Source of the DNA: a virus
IMG/VR virus record: IMGVR_UViG_3300025289_000070
Span: 1 to 36,527 of that record
Length of the DNA stretch: 36,527 nucleotides
Strand: one strand, 5' to 3'
Positions 2,531-31,909 of this stretch are shown one piece after another. The first letter of the stretch is position 1. Every line of letters starts with the position of its first letter. Both the position numbers and the translations under genes were made by a program. Under the pieces are notes generated by a model. That model saw nothing but the letters and a program-made list of their open reading frames with translations, did no database searches and was not told the origin of the DNA.

Positions 2531-4303
2531 ATGGCATATACCAAAGATGAGTTATATTCAAAAGAATATGTTGACCAGATAAATACATCAGGTATGTCTA
2601 TTGTTGGTTCTTCACCCGGAAGAGTACAGGAAGAATATAACAGAGCAATAGCGAGTGGTGTTAATCCTAATAAACTTAAAATGGATATCAAGCCAATCGT
2701 GCAACCAAGCGGTGAAATTACCCGTCCTATTGGCGATTATCCTCCAACTCAATTAACTGGTGGTGGATTATGGACAGGAACTGGAATAATGCCAATTACC
2801 GGAGCAAGCATTACGCCGGCCGCTGATTTATCTAAACAAATATCTGTCCCTTCTTATAATCCTGCTTATGACATAAGCAAGTTGGGAAGCGGTATTATGA
2901 CATACGAAGAAGCGACAAGCGGAGATGCGGGAATTAAAACATATAAAGAAAGACAGGCAATTCAACCAACTGGATTAGCTCCCGAAGAAAGAAAAGCTCA
3001 AACGCTTTCGGAACGAATACAAGCATTAAACGAACAATTAACAGGACAATCAGCTTTTAGAGCGGGACAAGAGATTTCTCAAGATGTTTTAGGAAAACAA
3101 AGAACAGTTCTTGATTTAACATCTCAATTAAGAATTTTACAAAATGAAGCATTGGCGATTCCTTTACAACAAGCAGGCGTGAATGTGACTTCGGCAATGC
3201 TTGGAGCAAAGCAAAGAGAACTCTTAACTCAAAATTCCATTAAAGCTCTTGGTATTTCCGCTTTTTTGGAAGCGGCAAGAGGTAATTTAGCGTTAGCTTA
3301 TGATTTAGTTGATAGGGCAGTGGCGGCAAAATTTGACCCGATGAAAGAAGAAATAGCAGCGAAAACCGCCAATTATAATTTAATTATAAAGAGTCCTGAA
3401 TTTTCTTTATCTGAACAAAAAAGAGCGCAACAATTAAAAGATATTGAAACGGCAAAAAGTGCTGTAATAAAAAAACAAGAAATAGAAACAGAAAATATCT
3501 ATAAAATAGGATTGGAAGCCGCTAAAAATGGAGCGAGCGCAATGATATTAAGGGATATAAATAACGCAAAATCTCCGCAAGAAGCATTAGAAATTGTGGC
3601 AAAAAGCGGAATTTATAAAAAAGAAATAAAACCAACTGGAATACTAACGCCGACATCAGAAATTATTACCACCCCAAGCGGAGAACAATTAGAATACGGC
3701 ACGCCCGAATATATGATTGAAAGATTAAAACAAACTGCTGGTTCTAAAACAAAATTGGTAGCAAGTGAACGAGAACAACTTGGAAAATTCGCTAATGTTG
3801 TTGCCCTTACTGATAATTTAATGCAAAGTTTGGATAAAGCGACCAATGACCCAATTCTTGGTTATCTTAAATCATTAAATCCCTATGATTTTGATGCTCG
3901 GGCTGTTAATGCACAAGTAACGGCTCTTGTGCCAAGTGTAGCTCGGGCTTTATATGGCGAAGTTGGCGTATTAACTGATACCGACATTGAACGCTATCTT
4001 AAAACATTACCGAATATCCGTTCAACCACAGACCAAAATAAATTTATCGCGGCAATGACTTTATCTAATGCTAAAAGGGCTTACGAACAAACACTTCTTA
4101 ATTCAGCTAATTCAGGCGTAAATGTGTCGGGATTTGTTGATAGTTATAAAAATTTAACTGATAGATTAACTAAAATAGAAAAAGATATTGGAGTTGGGAA
4201 AATAATCGGTGTTCCTGAAAATAAAGTAGCAATTTTTGATGAAGTTATTTCAAAACCACAAGGATATTGGTCTAATCTTTGGAATGCTATAATAGGAAAA
4301 TAA
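2531..4303 (+). CDS. Internal virion/DNA-ejection-type protein
   Basis: A 590-residue largely helical protein. Residues about 140-330 are Gln/Glu/Lys/Ala-rich with long predicted helices. A C-terminal block around residues 430-545 contains ILGYLKSLNPYDFDARA and YGEVGVLTDTDIERYLKTLPN segments, which resemble a conserved domain of putative ejection or injection proteins in environmental podovirus-like genomes. That resemblance is from memory and was not searched. It follows the tail genes with a 4-base gap and is separated by one base from the next large helical protein, consistent with a pair of internal core or ejection proteins. Confidence 0.5.
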   Translation: MAYTKDELYSKEYVDQINTSGMSIVGSSPGRVQEEYNRAIASGVNPNKLKMDIKPIVQPSGEITRPIGDYPPTQLTGGGLWTGTGIMPITGASITPAADLSKQISVPSYNPAYDISKLGSGIMTYEEATSGDAGIKTYKERQAIQPTGLAPEERKAQTLSERIQALNEQLTGQSAFRAGQEISQDVLGKQRTVLDLTSQLRILQNEALAIPLQQAGVNVTSAMLGAKQRELLTQNSIKALGISAFLEAARGNLALAYDLVDRAVAAKFDPMKEEIAAKTANYNLIIKSPEFSLSEQKRAQQLKDIETAKSAVIKKQEIETENIYKIGLEAAKNGASAMILRDINNAKSPQEALEIVAKSGIYKKEIKPTGILTPTSEIITTPSGEQLEYGTPEYMIERLKQTAGSKTKLVASEREQLGKFANVVALTDNLMQSLDKATNDPILGYLKSLNPYDFDARAVNAQVTALVPSVARALYGEVGVLTDTDIERYLKTLPNIRSTTDQNKFIAAMTLSNAKRAYEQTLLNSANSGVNVSGFVDSYKNLTDRLTKIEKDIGVGKIIGVPENKVAIFDEVISKPQGYWSNLWNAIIGK

Positions 4304-4304
4304 T

Positions 4305-5651
4305 ATGCCTAAAATAACACAAGAACAATATGAAATAATGATTGGAAAAGGATTAACTTCGCAAGAAATTTCAAATATAGCTCAACAGAAAGGATATACA
4401 ATTTCTTTTGATAAACCGCAAGCCGAAGGAATTATTAGCGGAATTAAAGAAGATATTGGCGGAAGAATAACTGAAACATTAAAAGCTGGAGAGAGATTTC
4501 AGGAAGGAAAACAAACATTGCCAGAAACAATTTTACAGACCGGTGGTCAAATTGCTGGCGGATTTACTGATATTATTATGAAAGGTATTGGCGCAATTAT
4601 CCCAGACATTATTGAAGAACCAATTAAAACTGGATTAGGGAAAGTTGCTCAAACAGAAACAGCGCAAAAAGCAATACAAGGTTATCAATCTTGGGCAGAA
4701 AAAAATCCCAGAGCCGCCGCAGATTTAGAAGCGGTTGTAAATATAGCGTCTTTATATCCAGCCGCTAAATCAGCACAGGGTATTATTAAGGGAGGCGCAA
4801 AAACTACTCAATACGGATTTAAAGCAGTATCAGGGACTGGTAAAATAACTGCGGCGGGGGGAAAACAAGTTTTTAAGTCAGCATTTGATTTAACGGCAAA
4901 AGAAGCTCTATTAGTGCAGGCATATAAAGCCAAAGTTCCATTTTCACAAAGATTTATGGCGGCATTAAAAGGAAAAGAAATAGCACAAGCGCCAATTACC
5001 GCGGGAGAAACAGCTTTTAGAAAAGGATTAGTTGGCACAGAAACAATGATTGGGGTTCAAGCTAAAAGAGCGACAACTAATTTATGGGATGATATGATAA
5101 ATCCCGCTTTATCTCAAACAAAGGAAAAAGTTAATATGAAATCCTTTTTTAAGGACATTGAGAAAAAAATTGTTAATGAAACAAAAGACGCCGCAAGAAG
5201 AAGGGATTTATTAGATGCTCTTGGTTCGCTTAAAGATGATTATAAACATATTCCAAATGTTTCTTATTCTCGTCTTCAAGGTATTAAGTCGGATTGGGCT
5301 AAATTTGTTCCAGAGAAAGCATATAAAGGAAAACCAATAGCTGGCGCTTATAACGAAGTCAAAAATATGGCGGCAGAAGAAGCACGGCATAAAATTTATT
5401 CAGCATTAGGGGAAGAAGTTAAACAGGCATACCTTGATTATGGAAATCTTAAAGGACTTATGCAGTGGGGACGAAAAGCTATGACGGAGGGTGCTTTTAA
5501 GGGGGGATTTGGTTCATTTATGTCCGCTTTTTATGATACAACGATGACTCCAATTAAAACTATTGGAGGAAAAATAATTTATAAAACTGGAAAAGGATTA
5601 GAATTGATTGGAGAAAAAGGGGCAAAAACGATTGCTGATATTTTTGATTAA
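4305..5651 (+). CDS. Internal virion/ejection-type protein, second of pair
   Basis: A 448-residue protein. An N-terminal region (residues about 1-60) resembles a small helical UBA-like unit, followed by an amphipathic hydrophobic centre (residues about 65-190) with alternating Gly/Ala/Ile stretches that could insert in membranes, and a Lys/Glu-rich helical C-terminal half. No enzyme motif was recognised. An AGGAAA-like sequence ends six bases before ATG. Location directly after the 590-residue protein suggests a partner in genome delivery. Its stop codon overlaps by four bases the stop of a small gene on the opposite strand. Confidence 0.45.
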   Translation: MPKITQEQYEIMIGKGLTSQEISNIAQQKGYTISFDKPQAEGIISGIKEDIGGRITETLKAGERFQEGKQTLPETILQTGGQIAGGFTDIIMKGIGAIIPDIIEEPIKTGLGKVAQTETAQKAIQGYQSWAEKNPRAAADLEAVVNIASLYPAAKSAQGIIKGGAKTTQYGFKAVSGTGKITAAGGKQVFKSAFDLTAKEALLVQAYKAKVPFSQRFMAALKGKEIAQAPITAGETAFRKGLVGTETMIGVQAKRATTNLWDDMINPALSQTKEKVNMKSFFKDIEKKIVNETKDAARRRDLLDALGSLKDDYKHIPNVSYSRLQGIKSDWAKFVPEKAYKGKPIAGAYNEVKNMAAEEARHKIYSALGEEVKQAYLDYGNLKGLMQWGRKAMTEGAFKGGFGSFMSAFYDTTMTPIKTIGGKIIYKTGKGLELIGEKGAKTIADIFD

Positions 5652-6523: not shown

Positions 6524-7235
6524 AAAAGAATTACAACTTATAGAACTTGCTGAAAAAGGAGGAAAAGATAAAGACCTTCTACTTTTTGATGCTATTTTTG
6601 CTTTAGAAGACGAATTAAAAAAATCAATTCAAGAAATTAAGGATAAGTTTGATATTGCTGTGAAAGATATTAAAGATAATGTGCCTGACTTAAATAAAGT
6701 TTTAGAAAGTGTGATAGGGAGAGAAGGCAAGGCGGGATTAGCTGGCGAAAATGGAAAACAAGGCGAAAAAGGAGAGGCGGGTAAAGACGGCAGAAATGGA
6801 ATTGATGGAATTGATGGTAAAAATGGAGTTAGTGGTAGGGACGGAATGAATGGTAAAGACGGATTAAATGGTTCGCCAGATAATCCCGGGCAAATAAGAG
6901 ATAAACTTGAAACTCTTAAAGGCAAAGAAAGATTAGATATATCCGCCATAGATGGATTGGAAGAAAAAATTAAAGAAATCCCCGAAAGACCGACAACAAC
7001 TATTTTCGGAGGTAGGATACAACCTCGTTTTGTGAAGTTTAGTTTTACTGGAAACGGCGCTACTACCGCATTTACGCTTCCCCGTGAACCGGCTGGTAAG
7101 GGATTAGCATTGTGGGCGTATTATCAGGGGCAATGGCTACAACCGGCAATTCATTTTAATATCTCAAAATTAACATTTACAACAACTTTTACAGCGGAAA
7201 ATGGAACGACTATTGAAGGATTTTTAATGATATAA
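6507..7235 (+). CDS. Collagen-like tail fibre protein
   Basis: A 242-residue protein. Residues about 1-70 are helical, probably coiled coil. Residues about 72-125 are an uninterrupted Gly-X-Y series of roughly 17 triplets (for example GEKGEAGKDGRNGIDG), the signature of a collagen triple helix, common in phage fibre shafts. The C-terminal domain (about 165-242) is a beta-rich head with FSFTGNGATTAFTL, a pattern frequent in fibre or virion attachment proteins. Start ATG at 6507 overlaps the upstream HNH gene. Location among fibre genes supports a trimeric fibre or neck appendage. Confidence 0.75.
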   Translation: MRQLTKKELQLIELAEKGGKDKDLLLFDAIFALEDELKKSIQEIKDKFDIAVKDIKDNVPDLNKVLESVIGREGKAGLAGENGKQGEKGEAGKDGRNGIDGIDGKNGVSGRDGMNGKDGLNGSPDNPGQIRDKLETLKGKERLDISAIDGLEEKIKEIPERPTTTIFGGRIQPRFVKFSFTGNGATTAFTLPREPAGKGLALWAYYQGQWLQPAIHFNISKLTFTTTFTAENGTTIEGFLMI

Positions 7236-13141: not shown

Positions 13142-13669
13142 ATGGGAAGATTAAAAGGTGGAATACCTTGGAATAAAAATAAAAAGGGATTACAAATTGG
13201 TAGAAAAATAACTGATAAAGAAAAAGAAAATCTTAGAAAAAGAATGAAAGAAAATAATCCTATGAAAAATCCTGAAATTGTTGATAAGGTTAAAAAAAAA
13301 TTATTAGGAAGAAAATTACCACTTGATGTAATTGAAAAATTAAAAGGACGAAAGCCGTGGAATAAAAATTTAAAAGGATATATGGCTGGTGAAAAACATT
13401 ATAACTGGCAAAGTGGTAAATCTTTTGAACCTTATGGATTAGAATTCAATAAAGATTTAAAAGAAGTAATCAGAAATAGAGATAGGAGAAAATGTTTTAT
13501 TTGTGAAAAAACAGAATTGGAAAATAATAAAAAGTTAGATTGTCATCATATAGATTATAATAAAAGAAATAGTAATCCTAATAATTTAATTTCTTTATGT
13601 AGAAGTTGTCATATAAAAACGAACAATAAAAAAGAAAATTGGAGAAATTTTTTTAAAATTTATAAATAA
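13142..13669 (+). CDS. NUMOD3-HNH homing endonuclease
   Basis: A 175-residue protein. Two PWNKN segments (GIPWNKNKKG, RKPWNKNLKG) and KIT/K-E-N-L-R-K repeats match NUMOD3-type DNA-binding units. The C-terminal nuclease carries RRKCFICEKTE, DCHHIDYNKRNSNPNNLI and LCRSCHIKTN, with both CxxC pairs and the HH/N/H residues intact. It stands alone behind its own promoter and is followed by the holin-like gene. The same nuclease subfamily (DYNKxNxNPNNLI) recurs at 14085. Confidence 0.85.
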   Translation: MGRLKGGIPWNKNKKGLQIGRKITDKEKENLRKRMKENNPMKNPEIVDKVKKKLLGRKLPLDVIEKLKGRKPWNKNLKGYMAGEKHYNWQSGKSFEPYGLEFNKDLKEVIRNRDRRKCFICEKTELENNKKLDCHHIDYNKRNSNPNNLISLCRSCHIKTNNKKENWRNFFKIYK

Positions 13670-13896: not shown

Positions 13897-14084
13897 AATT
13901 TGGCTGGGATGTGCGAGTTAATACGGCATTCTGGCAAAAATAGATATAGCAATTTTCAAAAAGACCAAAATTATATTATACTTTTATAAATTGTCTTTAT
14001 TTTGAAAATGTTGCGACAAGAAATTTTAATGGTTTCTTGTTTATATTTATTTTTATTTAAAATAAATATAAATAATAAACTATT
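13897..14084 (+). other. Non-coding stretch with three tandem hairpins
   Basis: No convincing ORF is present. Three consecutive stem-loops occur: an imperfect one pairing 13949-13965 with 13993-14014, a perfect 8-bp one (ACAAGAAA 14016-14023 with TTTCTTGT 14033-14040), and a perfect 12-bp one (14041-14052 with 14060-14071, 7-base loop) ending 13 bases before the HNH start. It could be a terminator plus leader for the HNH gene or the 5' part of a former intron. Confidence 0.5.
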
Positions 14085-14657
14085 ATGAAAAGGAGATTTA
14101 AGTATACAGAGGAAACAAGAAAGAAAATAAGTCAAATAATGATGGGGAATAGAAATGGTAAGAATAGTTTATTTCAAAAAGGGAATAAAATAAATGTAGG
14201 TAAAAAACGTTCCGAAGAAACAAAAAAGAAAATCAGTGAAGCAAATAAGGGTAAAAAGCGTTCAAAAGAATTCAAGAAAAGAATGAGTGAAATTCATAAG
14301 GGTAAAAAATTTTCTTCAAGATTAGGGATTAAACATTCAAAAGAAACAAGAAAAAAAATGAGTAAAGCTCGTAAGGGAGAAAAACATTGGAATTGGCAAG
14401 GCGGAATTTCATTTGAAGAATACGGGATAGATTGGACTGATGATTTAAAAGAAAGTATAAGAAAAAGAGATAATTATATTTGTAATTTATGTGGTATTCA
14501 TCAAGATGAATTAGATGGTCGCCATAAAAAATTAGATATTCATCATATTGATTATGATAAATATAATTTAAATCCGAATAATTTAATTACACTTTGTAGA
14601 AATTGTCATATGAAAACTAATTATAATAGAAAATATTGGATTGAAAAATTTGGATAA
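14085..14657 (+). CDS. NUMOD3-HNH homing endonuclease
   Basis: A 190-residue protein with four or more NUMOD3-like repeats of the KKRSEETKKKISEANKGKK type (residues about 10-105), each expected to place a helix on DNA. The nuclease domain contains DNYICNLCG, DIHHIDYDKYNLNPNNLI and LCRNCHMKTN with all Zn and catalytic positions present. It is preceded by tandem hairpins and followed, in the same reading frame after its TAA, by a coding remnant of another gene, so it appears to be inserted in or at the edge of an older gene. Confidence 0.85.
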   Translation: MKRRFKYTEETRKKISQIMMGNRNGKNSLFQKGNKINVGKKRSEETKKKISEANKGKKRSKEFKKRMSEIHKGKKFSSRLGIKHSKETRKKMSKARKGEKHWNWQGGISFEEYGIDWTDDLKESIRKRDNYICNLCGIHQDELDGRHKKLDIHHIDYDKYNLNPNNLITLCRNCHMKTNYNRKYWIEKFG

Positions 14658-17050: not shown

Positions 17051-17350
17051 ATGGGACGAAATATATTTTCAAAAGAACAGGTGGAAGAAATTCGCAAATT
17101 ATACAAAGGCGGATTGTCTTCGGTGAAACTCGGAAAAATGTTTAATTGCGACCATACGACAATTTTATCAAATATCGGAACATTAAAAAGAAAATTAAAA
17201 CACATACAGCCAACACATAAACAGCCTTATGCGAAAAAACCTGTTGCGTTAAAACCGCAATTAGGTTATGATGAAATAAAATTAAAACAAGAAAGTAAAA
17301 AGTTTATTAGAAATGAAGTGGGCGAATTGATTGAAGTATTGACTTTATAA
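17051..17350 (+). CDS. Helix-turn-helix DNA-binding protein
   Basis: A 99-residue protein. Residues about 6-42 (FSKEQVEEIRKLYKGGLSS, then KLGKMFNCDHTTILSNI) form a clear HTH of the resolvase-tail or homeodomain-like type. The rest is basic and then Gln/Lys-rich. Likely a small transcription factor of the early region. The last codons (VLTL-stop) are built from the -35 part of the next promoter, so gene end and promoter overlap. Confidence 0.7.
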   Translation: MGRNIFSKEQVEEIRKLYKGGLSSVKLGKMFNCDHTTILSNIGTLKRKLKHIQPTHKQPYAKKPVALKPQLGYDEIKLKQESKKFIRNEVGELIEVLTL

Positions 17351-17368
17351 AAAGAATTATGATATAAT
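17339..17368 (+). promoter_or_regulatory. Promoter of first structured RNA unit
   Basis: TTGACT (17339-17344), 18-base spacer, TATAAT (17363-17368). Predicted start near 17375. The context GTATTGACTTTATAAAA is nearly identical to the promoter at 17555. Confidence 0.65.
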
Positions 17369-17383
17369 TGGAATATATGAAGA

Positions 17384-17443
17384 TTGGCTATCTCATATTA
17401 TCTTAATTTAAGATAGGGTAAGGAGTAATCCGCTCATAGCCAA
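17384..17443 (+). ncRNA. Candidate three-way-junction leader RNA
   Basis: P1 pairs TTGGCTAT (17384-17391) with ATAGCCAA (17436-17443), 8 bp. Inside are a 7-bp hairpin (17399-17405 with 17409-17415) and GGA-GTAA-TCC (17422-17431) with a GNRA-type loop. The P1 3' strand ends immediately before ATG 17444, and an AGGAG lies within the small hairpin. It does not match a riboswitch class I know. A cis-acting leader or a short RNA are both possible. Confidence 0.5.
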
Positions 17444-17566
17444 ATGAATAATAATTATATTCGTAAAATTCAATTTTTTGGTTGGACGAAAAGAAGATAC
17501 CGAGAAATCCGTCCACTTGTTAAAAGATTAGAAAAAAAGGAAATAAAAAGGGTATTGACTTTATAA
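17444..17566 (+). CDS. Small basic protein (40 aa)
   Basis: Forty codons directly after the structured leader, ending TAA at 17566. The product is Arg/Lys-rich (GWTKRRYREIRP, then a Lys-rich helix) and ends VLTL like the HTH protein, because the same promoter motif forms both 3' ends. No family recognised; nucleic-acid binding is plausible from charge. Confidence 0.5.
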   Translation: MNNNYIRKIQFFGWTKRRYREIRPLVKRLEKKEIKRVLTL

Positions 17567-17583
17567 AAGTTTTGCCTTATAAT
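17555..17583 (+). promoter_or_regulatory. Promoter of second structured RNA unit
   Basis: TTGACT (17555-17560), 17-base spacer, TATAAT (17578-17583). Predicted start near 17590, giving a leader of about 114 bases. Confidence 0.7.
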
Positions 17584-17598
17584 TTTAAAAATTAAATA

Positions 17599-17703
17599 CC
17601 GCTAATGCGGGGGACAAGTTAGCAAGTTAAAGTTCCCTGCGGGACTTGTGCCATTAATGAGAGCAATCTTAAAGATGGTGCTTGTCCCATAGGGAATTTT
17701 TTT
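17599..17703 (+). ncRNA. Candidate riboswitch-like leader RNA
   Basis: CCGC-TAAT-GCGG (17599-17610) abuts P1, 8 bp of GGGACAAG (17611-17618) with CTTGTCCC (17681-17688). P1 encloses a bulged hairpin (17630-17637 with 17641-17647) and a wobble-rich hairpin (17648-17655 with 17674-17680). An alternative hairpin TCCC-ATA-GGGA (17685-17695) plus T7 excludes P1 and covers the AGGGAA Shine-Dalgarno of the next gene. This looks like an expression platform; the ligand is unknown. Confidence 0.55.
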
Positions 17704-17976
17704 ATGGAAAAAATATCAAAAGAATATAAATTAAAAAAAAGTAGAATATATACCCGAGAACAATCACTTTGCGAGGAAATCTGGCTTTGGCTTAATAAAA
17801 AATTGCCATTTTCAAGAATTATGCGTATTATTAAAGAAAAAGGAATAACAGCAACTTATATGATTTACAATGAAATAAAACAATCTAATCCGAGAAATCG
17901 TTTATCATTATTTATTTGGAAAGTGAAAAACGAGAAAGTTGAAATTTTAGATAACAAAAAAGAGACGAGTTTTTAA
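17704..17976 (+). CDS. Unknown 90-aa protein behind structured leader
   Basis: A 90-residue basic protein with CEEIWLWLNKKLPFSRIMRIIKE near residues 23-45 and a C-terminal LFIWKVKNEK segment. No family was recognised; the helical middle could be a DNA-binding or protein-interaction unit. Its AGGGAA ribosome site lies in a hairpin that competes with the leader P1, so expression is probably switched. The stop codon lies in the loop of the terminator that ends the unit. Confidence 0.6.
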   Translation: MEKISKEYKLKKSRIYTREQSLCEEIWLWLNKKLPFSRIMRIIKEKGITATYMIYNEIKQSNPRNRLSLFIWKVKNEKVEILDNKKETSF

Positions 17977-17989
17977 TTCGTCTCTTTTT
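17957..17989 (+). terminator. Rho-independent terminator overlapping gene end
   Basis: A perfect 12-bp stem pairs 17957-17968 with 17978-17989 (GAGACGA/TCGTCTC core extended by A-T pairs), with a nine-base loop and a terminal T run. Confidence 0.8.
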
Positions 17990-18093
17990 AATTGTCCGAA
18001 ACGTCCGCCCGATTAACTTTTTAGAAAATCAGCATTCCAGACAATTTTCTTTAACAATATAAGTTTATCAAATAAAGAACGGATTGTCAATAG
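17990..18093. other. Intergenic sequence, nothing identified
   Basis: No ORF or promoter was seen. A weak 7-bp inverted repeat (AGAAAAT 18023-18029 with ATTTTCT 18044-18050) is the only structure. Confidence 0.4.
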
Positions 18094-18424
18094 CCCGCCG
18101 CTACGAACTGGGGAAACCCTTATGAAGAAGAACGGGAAGCTATTAGGCAATATCTTATCTTAAAAACAGCATTGAAACCGAAAGGTCAAGAAATTTTTAA
18201 GAATAAATAAGAAACGGACATCACAAGGATTAGATAATTAGGAAAACTAATCCCTTTCTGTTATCCCGCCAGACAGAAGAGCTTTACTTACAAACTTATG
18301 TTATTAAAGAAATAAATACTAACGCTTTGACTCCTCTTTATTACGAGGAAGATGGCGGGATATAGAAGAAATAGAAAATATATTCGGGCAAAAATTAATC
18401 TGTAAATTAAAAAATTATAACAAA
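18094..18424 (+). pseudogene. Decayed coding region (three open fragments)
   Basis: Three fragments read like protein in different frames without starts. One runs 18094-18210 after a TAG (NWGNPYEEEREAIRQYLI, ends GQEIFKNK). The second runs 18234-18365 (SRQTEELYLQTYVIKEIN). The third ends just after the HNH start at 18427 and includes DIEEIENIFGQKLICKLKN. Stops and a probable shift near 18355 break them. The parent gene is not recognised. The promoterless, stop-interrupted state suggests erosion beside the HNH insertion. Confidence 0.4.
18262..18362. repeat. 10-bp inverted repeat enclosing 81 bases
   Basis: TATCCCGCCA (18262-18271) and TGGCGGGATA (18353-18362) are perfect inverse complements, the most G+C-rich words in this AT-rich stretch. 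A smaller 7-bp repeat GGATTAG/CTAATCC (18227-18253) lies just upstream. It could close an RNA structure or mark a small mobile remnant. Confidence 0.5.
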
Positions 18425-18426
18425 AT

Positions 18427-21180: not shown

Positions 21181-21212
21181 ATATATGAAAAAAGAAACAA
21201 AGGTCGGTAAAA

Positions 21213-21268
21213 ATTAATTACAGAGTGGAGTGTGTGAGTTTTAAGTAATTAATTCTCATACATTCCAC
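21213..21268 (+). ncRNA. Pseudoknot-capable leader of nuclease gene
   Basis: A 14-bp stem pairs 21225-21238 with 21255-21268 and includes two G-T pairs that are stable only in RNA. Its 16-base loop contains GTAATTAAT (21245-21253), complementary to ATTAATTAC (21213-21221) just 5' of the stem. The two helices interleave as an H-type pseudoknot or are mutually exclusive. The element ends 12 bases before ATG 21281 and has no T tract, so translational control is more likely than termination. Confidence 0.55.
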
Positions 21269-21280
21269 CCTTACAAAAAA

Positions 21281-22180
21281 ATGAAAACTTATGAATTAAA
21301 ATCGACACAAAATAAAGATTTATTTCGTGTGGTGGATAGAAAAGGTAATTGGAATAATTACTTTATAAAAAGCAAAAATAAATATGTCCGTTCGGTTAAT
21401 TTTATTCTTGATAATGGATATACGAAGGGTATTAGATTTGTTAAATGGTTAAAAACAAAATCAGAAGAAGAAGCTGATAAAATCTTAAAAGAAACCGGCG
21501 AGCGCGGCGATAGAATTCATCAGTTTGTCGCAAGATTGTTTATATTACAGGGAAAAGCTGATAGATATACTTCCGTATTGGCGGAAGATAATTTGACCGA
21601 AGTCCAGTTAAGCGATGACGAGTGGGACGCAGTGCTGGCATTTCAGGAGTTTTGGAACAGACACGACAGCTCGTTAATCGCTTCGGAATATCCAATTTAT
21701 AATCTTAAATACGGATATGCCGGAACGCTTGATATAGTTATGCGATTGAATAAAGAATGCGGAATAAAAACTTGTAAATGTAAGGATTATATCAAGAAAA
21801 TCGGATTGATTGATATTAAAAGCGGCGGAGGGATTTATTCTTCTTACGGGGCGCAACTCGCCGCTTATGGAATGGGTCAAAATTTTAAGGAGATTTTAGG
21901 AAAAAATAAAATTGGTTATACGGCGGTATTGAGAATAGGAACAAATCATAAAACTACCGGAGGTTATGAATTTGGGCCGTATAATTCGCAGGAAACAAAA
22001 ACGCATTTCAAAGAATTTTTATCGGCAATGACGATTTGCGATGCGGAATATAAGCCGTTTAATCCAGAAAAAGAAATACAAGATATACAAGAAAATATAA
22101 ATCTTGAAATAAAACAAGAAACGCTGGTTGAGACACCAAAAAAGGTCGCCATTAAAAAATCTAAAAAAGATAATGCCTAA
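21281..22180 (+). CDS. PD-(D/E)XK nuclease, RecB/Cas4-like
   Basis: A 299-residue protein with the RecB-type nuclease pattern: GDRIH (His80), ASEYPIY (Glu136), AGTLDIV (Asp151), GLIDIKSG (Asp178, Lys180) and YGAQLAAYG (Gln192, Tyr196). A small CGIKTCKCK insertion lies near residues 160-167, but the four Cys of a Cas4 Fe-S cluster are not evident. The last 30 residues are Lys-rich. It likely acts as a recombination exonuclease together with the next gene, which it overlaps by eight bases. Confidence 0.75.
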   Translation: MKTYELKSTQNKDLFRVVDRKGNWNNYFIKSKNKYVRSVNFILDNGYTKGIRFVKWLKTKSEEEADKILKETGERGDRIHQFVARLFILQGKADRYTSVLAEDNLTEVQLSDDEWDAVLAFQEFWNRHDSSLIASEYPIYNLKYGYAGTLDIVMRLNKECGIKTCKCKDYIKKIGLIDIKSGGGIYSSYGAQLAAYGMGQNFKEILGKNKIGYTAVLRIGTNHKTTGGYEFGPYNSQETKTHFKEFLSAMTICDAEYKPFNPEKEIQDIQENINLEIKQETLVETPKKVAIKKSKKDNA

Positions 22181-28831: not shown

Positions 28832-28848
28832 AATAAATAAATAATTAG

Positions 28849-28947
28849 AAAACTCTTGTAAATTTGGTAGAGCTATTCGTGCTTCCAAAGATTTCTTACA
28901 AGAGTTTTTTTTGGAAGCAAGAATGGCTCTACCAATAGAGCTTTTTT
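28849..28947 (+). terminator. Multi-state attenuator (two terminators, one antiterminator)
   Basis: Terminator 1 is a perfect 13-bp stem (28849-28861 with 28896-28908) with T8. Terminator 2 is GCTCTA-CCAA-TAGAGC (28926-28941) with T6. A 27-bp near-perfect stem (28864-28890 with 28909-28935; one mismatch, few G-T pairs) overlaps parts of both and excludes them. Such alternate folding is the hallmark of attenuation or an RNA switch between the flanking head-module genes. Confidence 0.65.
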
Positions 28948-31138: not shown

Positions 31139-31212
31139 TTGACTTGTTAAAATAATCAGACTATAATTCTTATAAATTAGGATGTGGAAAATAAATTAAA
31201 ATTCCACATCCT
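31139..31212 (+). promoter_or_regulatory. Consensus promoter plus 5'-end hairpin for HNH gene
   Basis: TTGACT (31139-31144), 17-base spacer, TATAAT (31162-31167). The predicted RNA starts near 31174 and immediately forms a perfect 13-bp hairpin (31177-31189 with 31202-31214), 12-base loop, ending 11 bases before ATG 31226. The hairpin could protect the mRNA 5' end or limit translation of the endonuclease. Confidence 0.65.
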
Positions 31213-31225
31213 AAAATATAAGAGT

Positions 31226-31909
31226 ATGGCTTATAAAAATATAGAGGACGCGAGAAAATACCAACACGATTATTATTTAAAGTTTCCGCATCCATTAATT
31301 AAAAAAACGAAAGAAGAAAAATTAGCGATAAAAAGAAAATGGTATCACGATAATTTAGATAAAAATAAAGCGATTGCTAAAAAATCTCGTGAGAAGCATA
31401 AAGAACAAAGAAAATTAGATATAAAAATCTGGCGGGAAAAGAATAAAGAATGGGTAAGAAATTACAACAAGAAATATCAGAAAGAATATTATTTAAATAA
31501 CAAAGAAGAAATTGACGAAAAAAATAAACTTTATGCCAAAACTCATCGAAGAGAAATGGTGAGAAATGTTCAGAGATATGTTAAAAGAAATAAAGAGAAA
31601 GTAATCAAGTATAGAAAACAATACGAAAAAACATTAAATGGAAAATATCGTCAATTACAACATAGAGCAAGGATAAAAGGACAAGAAACAGATATAACAA
31701 TAAATCAATTCCGAGAAATTATATTATCACCTTGTTATTATTGTGGAGAAAAAGAAAAACCAAGAGGGATAGATAGGGTAGATAATAATCAAAATTATTT
31801 ATTAAAAAATTCAGTAGCTTGTTGTAAAATTTGTAATTTTATGAAAAAAGCGTTATCTAAACAACAATTTTTAGAACATATAGAAAAAATTTATAAAAAT
31901 ATAATTTAA
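31226..31909 (+). CDS. HNH homing endonuclease (GIDRVDN type)
   Basis: A 227-residue very basic protein starting at ATG 31226 rather than the GTG at 31184, which lies in the hairpin. The first 150 residues are Lys/Arg/Asn/Tyr-rich helical repeats likely to bind DNA. The nuclease has SPCYYCGEKEKPRGIDRVDN, then NSVACCKICNFMKKALS, the CxxC...IDRxDN...CCxxCNxxK family. It is inserted between capsid and portal genes and overlaps the portal ATG in TAATG. It is a third HNH lineage distinct from the NUMOD3 copies. Confidence 0.8.
   Translation: MAYKNIEDARKYQHDYYLKFPHPLIKKTKEEKLAIKRKWYHDNLDKNKAIAKKSREKHKEQRKLDIKIWREKNKEWVRNYNKKYQKEYYLNNKEEIDEKNKLYAKTHRREMVRNVQRYVKRNKEKVIKYRKQYEKTLNGKYRQLQHRARIKGQETDITINQFREIILSPCYYCGEKEKPRGIDRVDNNQNYLLKNSVACCKICNFMKKALSKQQFLEHIEKIYKNII

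Follow-up and report, generated by a model that had tools for sequence, protein, structure and literature searches.

The window, that is, the whole stretch of DNA that was analysed, is a complete virus record of 36,527 bases with a GC content of 33%. It represents a tailed phage with genes for a terminase, a capsid protein and an exonuclease, a portal-like gene and many HNH endonuclease genes; a tRNA/tmRNA search gave no match. Relatives of the terminase were found by search in about 30 IMG/VR contigs and in two metagenome-assembled bacterial contigs, one of which belongs to a 1.2-Mb MAG. Considering that genomes of the same class are 0.5-1.2 Mb in size, the host of the phage is probably one of the Patescibacteria-like bacteria with tiny genomes.

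The locus studied here consists of a sigma-70-type promoter, a leader of about 114 nt (from ~17590 to 17703) and an ORF of 90 codons whose ATG is the very next codon after the leader (Table 1). The promoter, which is near-consensus, and the approximately 114-base leader described in an earlier note on this DNA are both present. A promoter scan revealed no other promoter-like site on the + strand between 17590 and 17704. The promoter region contains one copy of a 17-nt exact repeat (17336-17352 and 17552-17568), which it has in common with a second promoter (window positions 17336-17446). Downstream of the latter lies a leader of 70 nt that has a closing stem of 8 bp (UUGGCUAU/AUAGCCAA) and extends to the ATG of a 40-aa ORF. 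We considered this leader (17375-17443) as a similar element because of its closing stem, but rejected it as its fold is barely more stable than those of shuffled sequences (z -1.6 to -2.0).

The 90-aa gene is real, as shown by codon usage that is coding in its own frame and not in the two other frames, and by the presence of relatives. A relative (33% identity, E 6.9e-10) was found in the 1.2-Mb MAG, and when a five-sequence profile was run against 286 small genomes from the bacterial class of this MAG, 30 proved to have members of the family. The protein had no significant match in Pfam, NCBIfam or PDB, and its structure prediction was poor (mean pLDDT 61.5). With a hairpin terminator at its 3' end, the gene appears to form a one-gene unit, presumably under the control of the leader. 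A single-sequence covariance model did not find the leader near 24 loci of relatives of the 90-aa family, a result that carries little weight given the insensitivity of the model; the lack of the leader in the relatives checked suggests that it is not the ancestral regulator of this gene family. Further downstream, positions 17990-18426 form a non-coding stretch ahead of an HNH gene with an apparently broken reading frame (..NPYEEEREAIRQYLILKTALKPKGQEIFKNK*), perhaps a gene that the HNH element has interrupted.

Table 1. Features of the leader locus and relatives of the 28847-28947 element in other contigs
Feature	Coordinates	Strand	Evidence
Sigma-70-type promoter, TTGACT-17 nt-TATAAT	17555-17583	+	11/12 consensus positions
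Transcription start	~17590	+	inferred from promoter
Small 5' hairpin P0, CCGC-UAAU-GCGG	17599-17610	+	minimum-energy fold
Antiterminator-like 9-bp hairpin, GCGGGGGAC (17607-17615) : GUUCCCUGC (17632-17640)	17607-17640	+	-40.1 kcal/mol
P1, GGGACAAG (17611-17618) : CUUGUCCC (17681-17688), two hairpins inside	17611-17688	+	-38.8 kcal/mol if enforced
Dominant 72-nt hairpin, GCAA loop, lower stem UUCCCU:AGGGAA	17629-17700	+	minimum-energy fold
AGGGAA in 3' arm of long hairpin, weak ribosome-site candidate	17691-17696	+	unpaired probability <=0.003 per position
U7 tract (T7) after hairpin, predicted intrinsic terminator abutting start codon	17697-17703	+	sequence
90-aa ORF, small protein family shared by Patescibacteria-like genomes and phages of such hosts	17704-17976	+	codon usage, relatives
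Hairpin terminator at 3' end of 90-aa gene, closing one-gene unit	17957-17989	+	15-bp stem, z -6.0
Relative of 28847 element, L010	~6820-6935		B arm, -25 to -27 kcal/mol
Relative of 28847 element, L054	8273-8365		B arm, -31 kcal/mol
Relative of 28847 element, L022	9284-9385		B arm, -27 kcal/mol
Relative of 28847 element, L079	~4270-4375	complement	identified by inspection

The predicted fold of the leader (-47.6 kcal/mol) is dominated by a long hairpin with 29 bp in four stems (11+5+8+5) separated by symmetrical internal loops. This hairpin is completed by the pairing of TTCCCT (17633-17638) with AGGGAA, runs straight into U7 and ends 3 nt ahead of the AUG at 17704. It is much more stable than expected from shuffled sequences (z = -6.9 for 17590-17715, -6.1 for the leader 17590-17703 and -8.7 for 17629-17706). 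The stable hairpin and the U-run that immediately follows it have the form of an intrinsic terminator or attenuator, and the combination was the second strongest hairpin-plus-T-run among the 181 T-runs of the window. A terminator scan that admitted only loops of 3-8 nt missed it, the lower stem beside U7 is just half G-C, and three to four of the U's are able to pair with AAAG. The earlier note had mentioned the TTCCCT:AGGGAA pairing as a possibility and thereby underrated it, as this pairing belongs to the dominant fold. The TCCC-ATA-GGGA sequence and the T7 tract described there were both found; however, the dominant fold is the long hairpin, and the 4-bp TCCC/GGGA hairpin, which that note had set against P1, is not the main competitor.

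As in attenuators, several mutually exclusive states are open to the 5' segment of the leader: it can fold back on itself as P0, bind the 5' arm of the lower stem, or bind the 3' arm. The 8-bp P1 enclosing two hairpins, as previously proposed, does exist and goes beyond chance, since this pairing of the 5' segment beats ~99.9% of shuffles (p about 0.001); at equilibrium, however, its probability is about 1e-6, and it is ~9 kcal/mol weaker than the long-hairpin state. A 9-bp pairing between 17607-17615 and 17632-17640, absent from the earlier note, rivals P1 at least equally (p about 0.002 versus shuffled 5' segments) and occurs in the best fold obtained when 17691-17703 (AGGGAAU7) is forced to be single-stranded. 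Both are competing pairings of the kind that prevents the terminator in an attenuator.

We also modelled co-transcriptional folding by a home-made coarse master-equation simulation with direct-path barriers, three rate constants and three elongation speeds. Because this simulation is sensitive to the rate constant and leaves out the exit-channel footprint of the polymerase, its numbers should be taken as indicative only: open forms made up 97-100% of the molecules until 17691, divided between P1 plus P0 and the 9-bp hairpin plus the upper hairpin, with P1 in 4-58% of the molecules right before AGGGAA emerged, and the terminator form then reached 36-96% at 17696 and 56-99% at 17704, varying with the rate assumptions. 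As the long hairpin displaced the open forms at 17694-17704 in the model, the decision would be made with the polymerase on or near U7. Taken together, the computed energies, the shuffles and the simulated order of folding support a bistable leader with exclusive folds, one of which is predicted to cover both the U-run and the pre-start sequence.

The earlier note had also described the element as masking a Shine-Dalgarno (SD) site. The start region of the 90-aa gene was indeed predicted to be masked, with a mean unpaired probability of 0.11 at -15 to -4, one of the lowest accessibilities in the 27 genes tested; the SD and/or AUG region is predicted to be held in a stem, as in T4-type hairpins. 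On the other hand, AGGGAA is a weak SD sequence and most genes of this phage have none: an SD-like 4-mer could be identified in the 22 nt upstream of only about a quarter of the genes. A -10-like hexamer was located 5-9 nt ahead of the start in seven genes, compared with about two expected; examples are the genes at 13142, 13699, 17051 and 22683. The scarcity of SD sites and the excess of TATAAT-like boxes right before start codons suggest that many mRNAs of this phage are probably leaderless. The SD masking worded in the note is therefore doubtful: masking of AGGGAA itself is possibly less important, and masking of the whole start region may matter more.

Strong structure (z below -5) in the 80 nt upstream of the start was found in only 4 of 29 genes, namely the 90-aa gene, the HNH genes at 14085 and 31226, and the exonuclease gene at 21281. 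The two HNH endonuclease genes have long near-perfect palindromes up to their start codons (14027-14085, z -5.4 to -6.8; 31139-31226, z -8.3 to -8.4), whose stems lie 0-5 nt from the AUG and have no U-run. The 5' arm at 31139 shares sequence with a consensus promoter, which recalls the T4 arrangement, in which only mRNAs started upstream hide the start. The strong hairpin before the exonuclease gene (21200-21281, z -5.3 to -6.6) ends 13 nt from the ATG.

To characterize the RNA class of the leader, an Infernal/Rfam search was run as the earlier note had suggested. No family could be identified in the whole window at the gathering threshold, and all matches from a permissive scan of 17540-17760 were below threshold and at chance level (best E 0.26). 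The sole copy found outside the window, in contig 3300025322_000808, was identical in sequence. Beyond this copy, no homolog of the leader was detected by exact 18-mers in viral contigs, by blastn in phages and plasmids, or by nhmmer and blastn in the terminase relatives, and a single-sequence covariance model found none either, the latter being a weak negative since this model detects only its own sequence and the palindromic minus strand. The relatives of the terminase and capsid protein share head genes with the phage but lack the leader region. Three other hits of a P1-pattern search, in L042-L044, were inspected and judged to be due to chance, and a CRISPR-repeat mimic, a retron RNA and a 6S-like RNA were dropped because no match supported them. 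With no Rfam match and an identical sequence as the only other copy, no riboswitch class or ligand is supported, and the term 'riboswitch-like' used in the note goes beyond the evidence.

A second switch-like RNA was identified at 28847-28947 (+), just ahead of a virion gene, which is followed by the scaffold and capsid genes. It is composed of two interleaved hairpins (A5'-B5'-A3'-B3'), of which A carries the motif AAACUCUUGYRA/UYRCAAGAGU and B is long, followed by a T-run terminator that uses B3' as its 5' arm. Related phages keep this topology, and also its place where gene order is readable, with B arms that are almost wholly changed (Table 1). The A arms vary as AAACUCUUG-UAA/UUA, -CAA/UUG and -CGA/UCG, which represent compensatory changes, although part of this set was found through a pattern requiring complementarity. 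In contrast to the leader (17590-17703), this predicted element is backed by sequence comparison among relatives. The A-arm motif recurs, again interleaved with a long hairpin, at 2117-2173 (complement) of L082, a contig without detectable relation to these phages; it may be a chance occurrence or may reflect a wider spread of the element.

On the basis of these results, the most likely reading of the leader, to which we give about an even chance of being correct, is a cis-acting, default-off element of the 90-aa gene that combines attenuation at U7 with occlusion of the start region. The polymerase would initiate at ~17590, and the 5' segment GCGGGGGACAAG would first pair with GUUCCCUGC, or later with CUUGUCCC (P1); both early arrangements would keep AGGGAAUUUUUUU unpaired. 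Newly made AGGGAA would then push the 5' segment off UUCCCU, and the 72-nt hairpin would be completed while the polymerase sits on U7, so that most transcripts would stop. In read-through transcripts, ribosome binding would be hindered by a hairpin that ends 3 nt from the AUG. If the displacement were delayed, the 90-aa protein would be made, and candidates for causing such a delay are an RNA-binding protein, a translating ribosome, an antitermination-modified polymerase and faster elongation. The pairings, their energies and, within the coarse simulation, their order are results of computation; termination, start-site occlusion and regulation are what we infer from them. This default-off reading is favored by the strong promoter, the stable hairpin abutting U7 and the AUG, the two alternative pairings beyond chance, the simulated order of folding, the low accessibility of the start and the real gene with its own 3' terminator, as well as by the second switch-like terminator RNA in the phage, whose topology is conserved in relatives. 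Against it stand the lack of a sequence-diverged homolog and of the leader in the family relatives checked, together with the half G-C lower stem, the U's pairable with AAAG, the absence of the hairpin from the terminator scan and the dependence of the home-made simulation on its rate constant.

The leading rival is a T4-type timing hairpin that acts on translation alone, as in genes e, soc, I-TevI and mobE; it would hide the start, and U7 would be a non-terminating, AU-rich start context. It owes this position to the stems of the HNH genes at 14085 and 31226, which reach the AUG without a U-run as in the T4 and Aeh1 cases, and such hairpins have been documented in T4-like phages, homing endonucleases included (PMC3014915). 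However, U7 directly follows the stem of the leader hairpin, and we found no alternative promoter that would start transcription within or beyond the 5' arm. Since the one strong promoter in the vicinity precedes the entire hairpin, its transcript contains the whole hairpin, and this promoter alone could not expose the start in the manner of T4 late promoters; we consider this explanation unlikely. A stand-alone small RNA of ~114 nt, with the 90-aa gene expressed only through read-through, would be consistent with the promoter, the compact stable fold and the terminator-like 3' end, all of which an sRNA gene needs. This seems rather improbable, given that the ATG follows U7 without a gap, that the gene belongs to a real family and that no further + strand promoter-like site separates the RNA from the start of the gene.

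It was also considered that a metabolite- or ion-sensing riboswitch might operate here, in which a ligand would stabilize the P1 three-way junction (on) versus the long hairpin (off). P1 with its two inner hairpins does compete with the terminator, and the complementarity of its arms is above chance. Nevertheless, the absence of an Rfam class and of any diverged homolog found, and hence of a conserved aptamer, a downstream protein family without known metabolic role and the energetic disadvantage of P1 relative to the off state make a riboswitch quite improbable. The chance is slimmer still that the leader represents a new sensing RNA class in phages of Patescibacteria-like hosts, in which the P1 three-way junction, stabilized by a phage protein or small molecule, would override the U7 terminator and time the production of a small protein shared with the host. 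Finally, a translating ribosome on a short leader ORF might select the fold. Two candidate ORFs, MRGTS (17605-17622) and MRAILKMVLVP (17657-17692), overlap the switching segments, and the latter stops within AGGGAA; but ORFs of such short length would be expected to arise by chance, both lack an SD sequence and the peptides contain no telling codon runs, which makes such an attenuator very unlikely and the least probable of the explanations considered.

If the default-off reading is right, the leader would provide a compact and testable case of RNA-based gene control in phages of an almost uncultured host group, and within a genome in which SD sites are rare. Together with the conserved switch-like RNA ahead of the head genes and the two HNH start-codon hairpins, it would then suggest a lineage that relies on RNA folding for gene control.

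Several known systems resemble the leader in part. The put RNAs of phage HK022 are structured phage RNAs near a promoter that act on polymerase at distant terminators. The leader is likewise a structured phage RNA near a promoter with a possible cis effect on termination, whereas its terminator is part of the leader RNA itself. In T4 (e, soc, gene 49 and I-TevI) and Aeh1 (mobE), a long hairpin covers the pre-AUG region of the gene (PMC3014915), and the leader hairpin has the same position before a small phage gene. However, a late promoter in the 5' arm or region yields a hairpin-free late mRNA in T4 and Aeh1, whereas the entire hairpin of the leader is downstream of its promoter and is followed by U7. 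Attenuators and terminator-type riboswitch platforms, such as the trp and his leaders and the Bacillus riboswitch leaders, share with the phage leader a chain of exclusive pairings that ends in a hairpin and U-run directly upstream of the gene. The phage leader differs from them in having no leader peptide with control codons, aptamer or family relation, and in that its terminator loop contains a 48-nt hairpin. Although its sequence is unique, it looks like an ordinary type of switch and represents a single example of a familiar kind of device.
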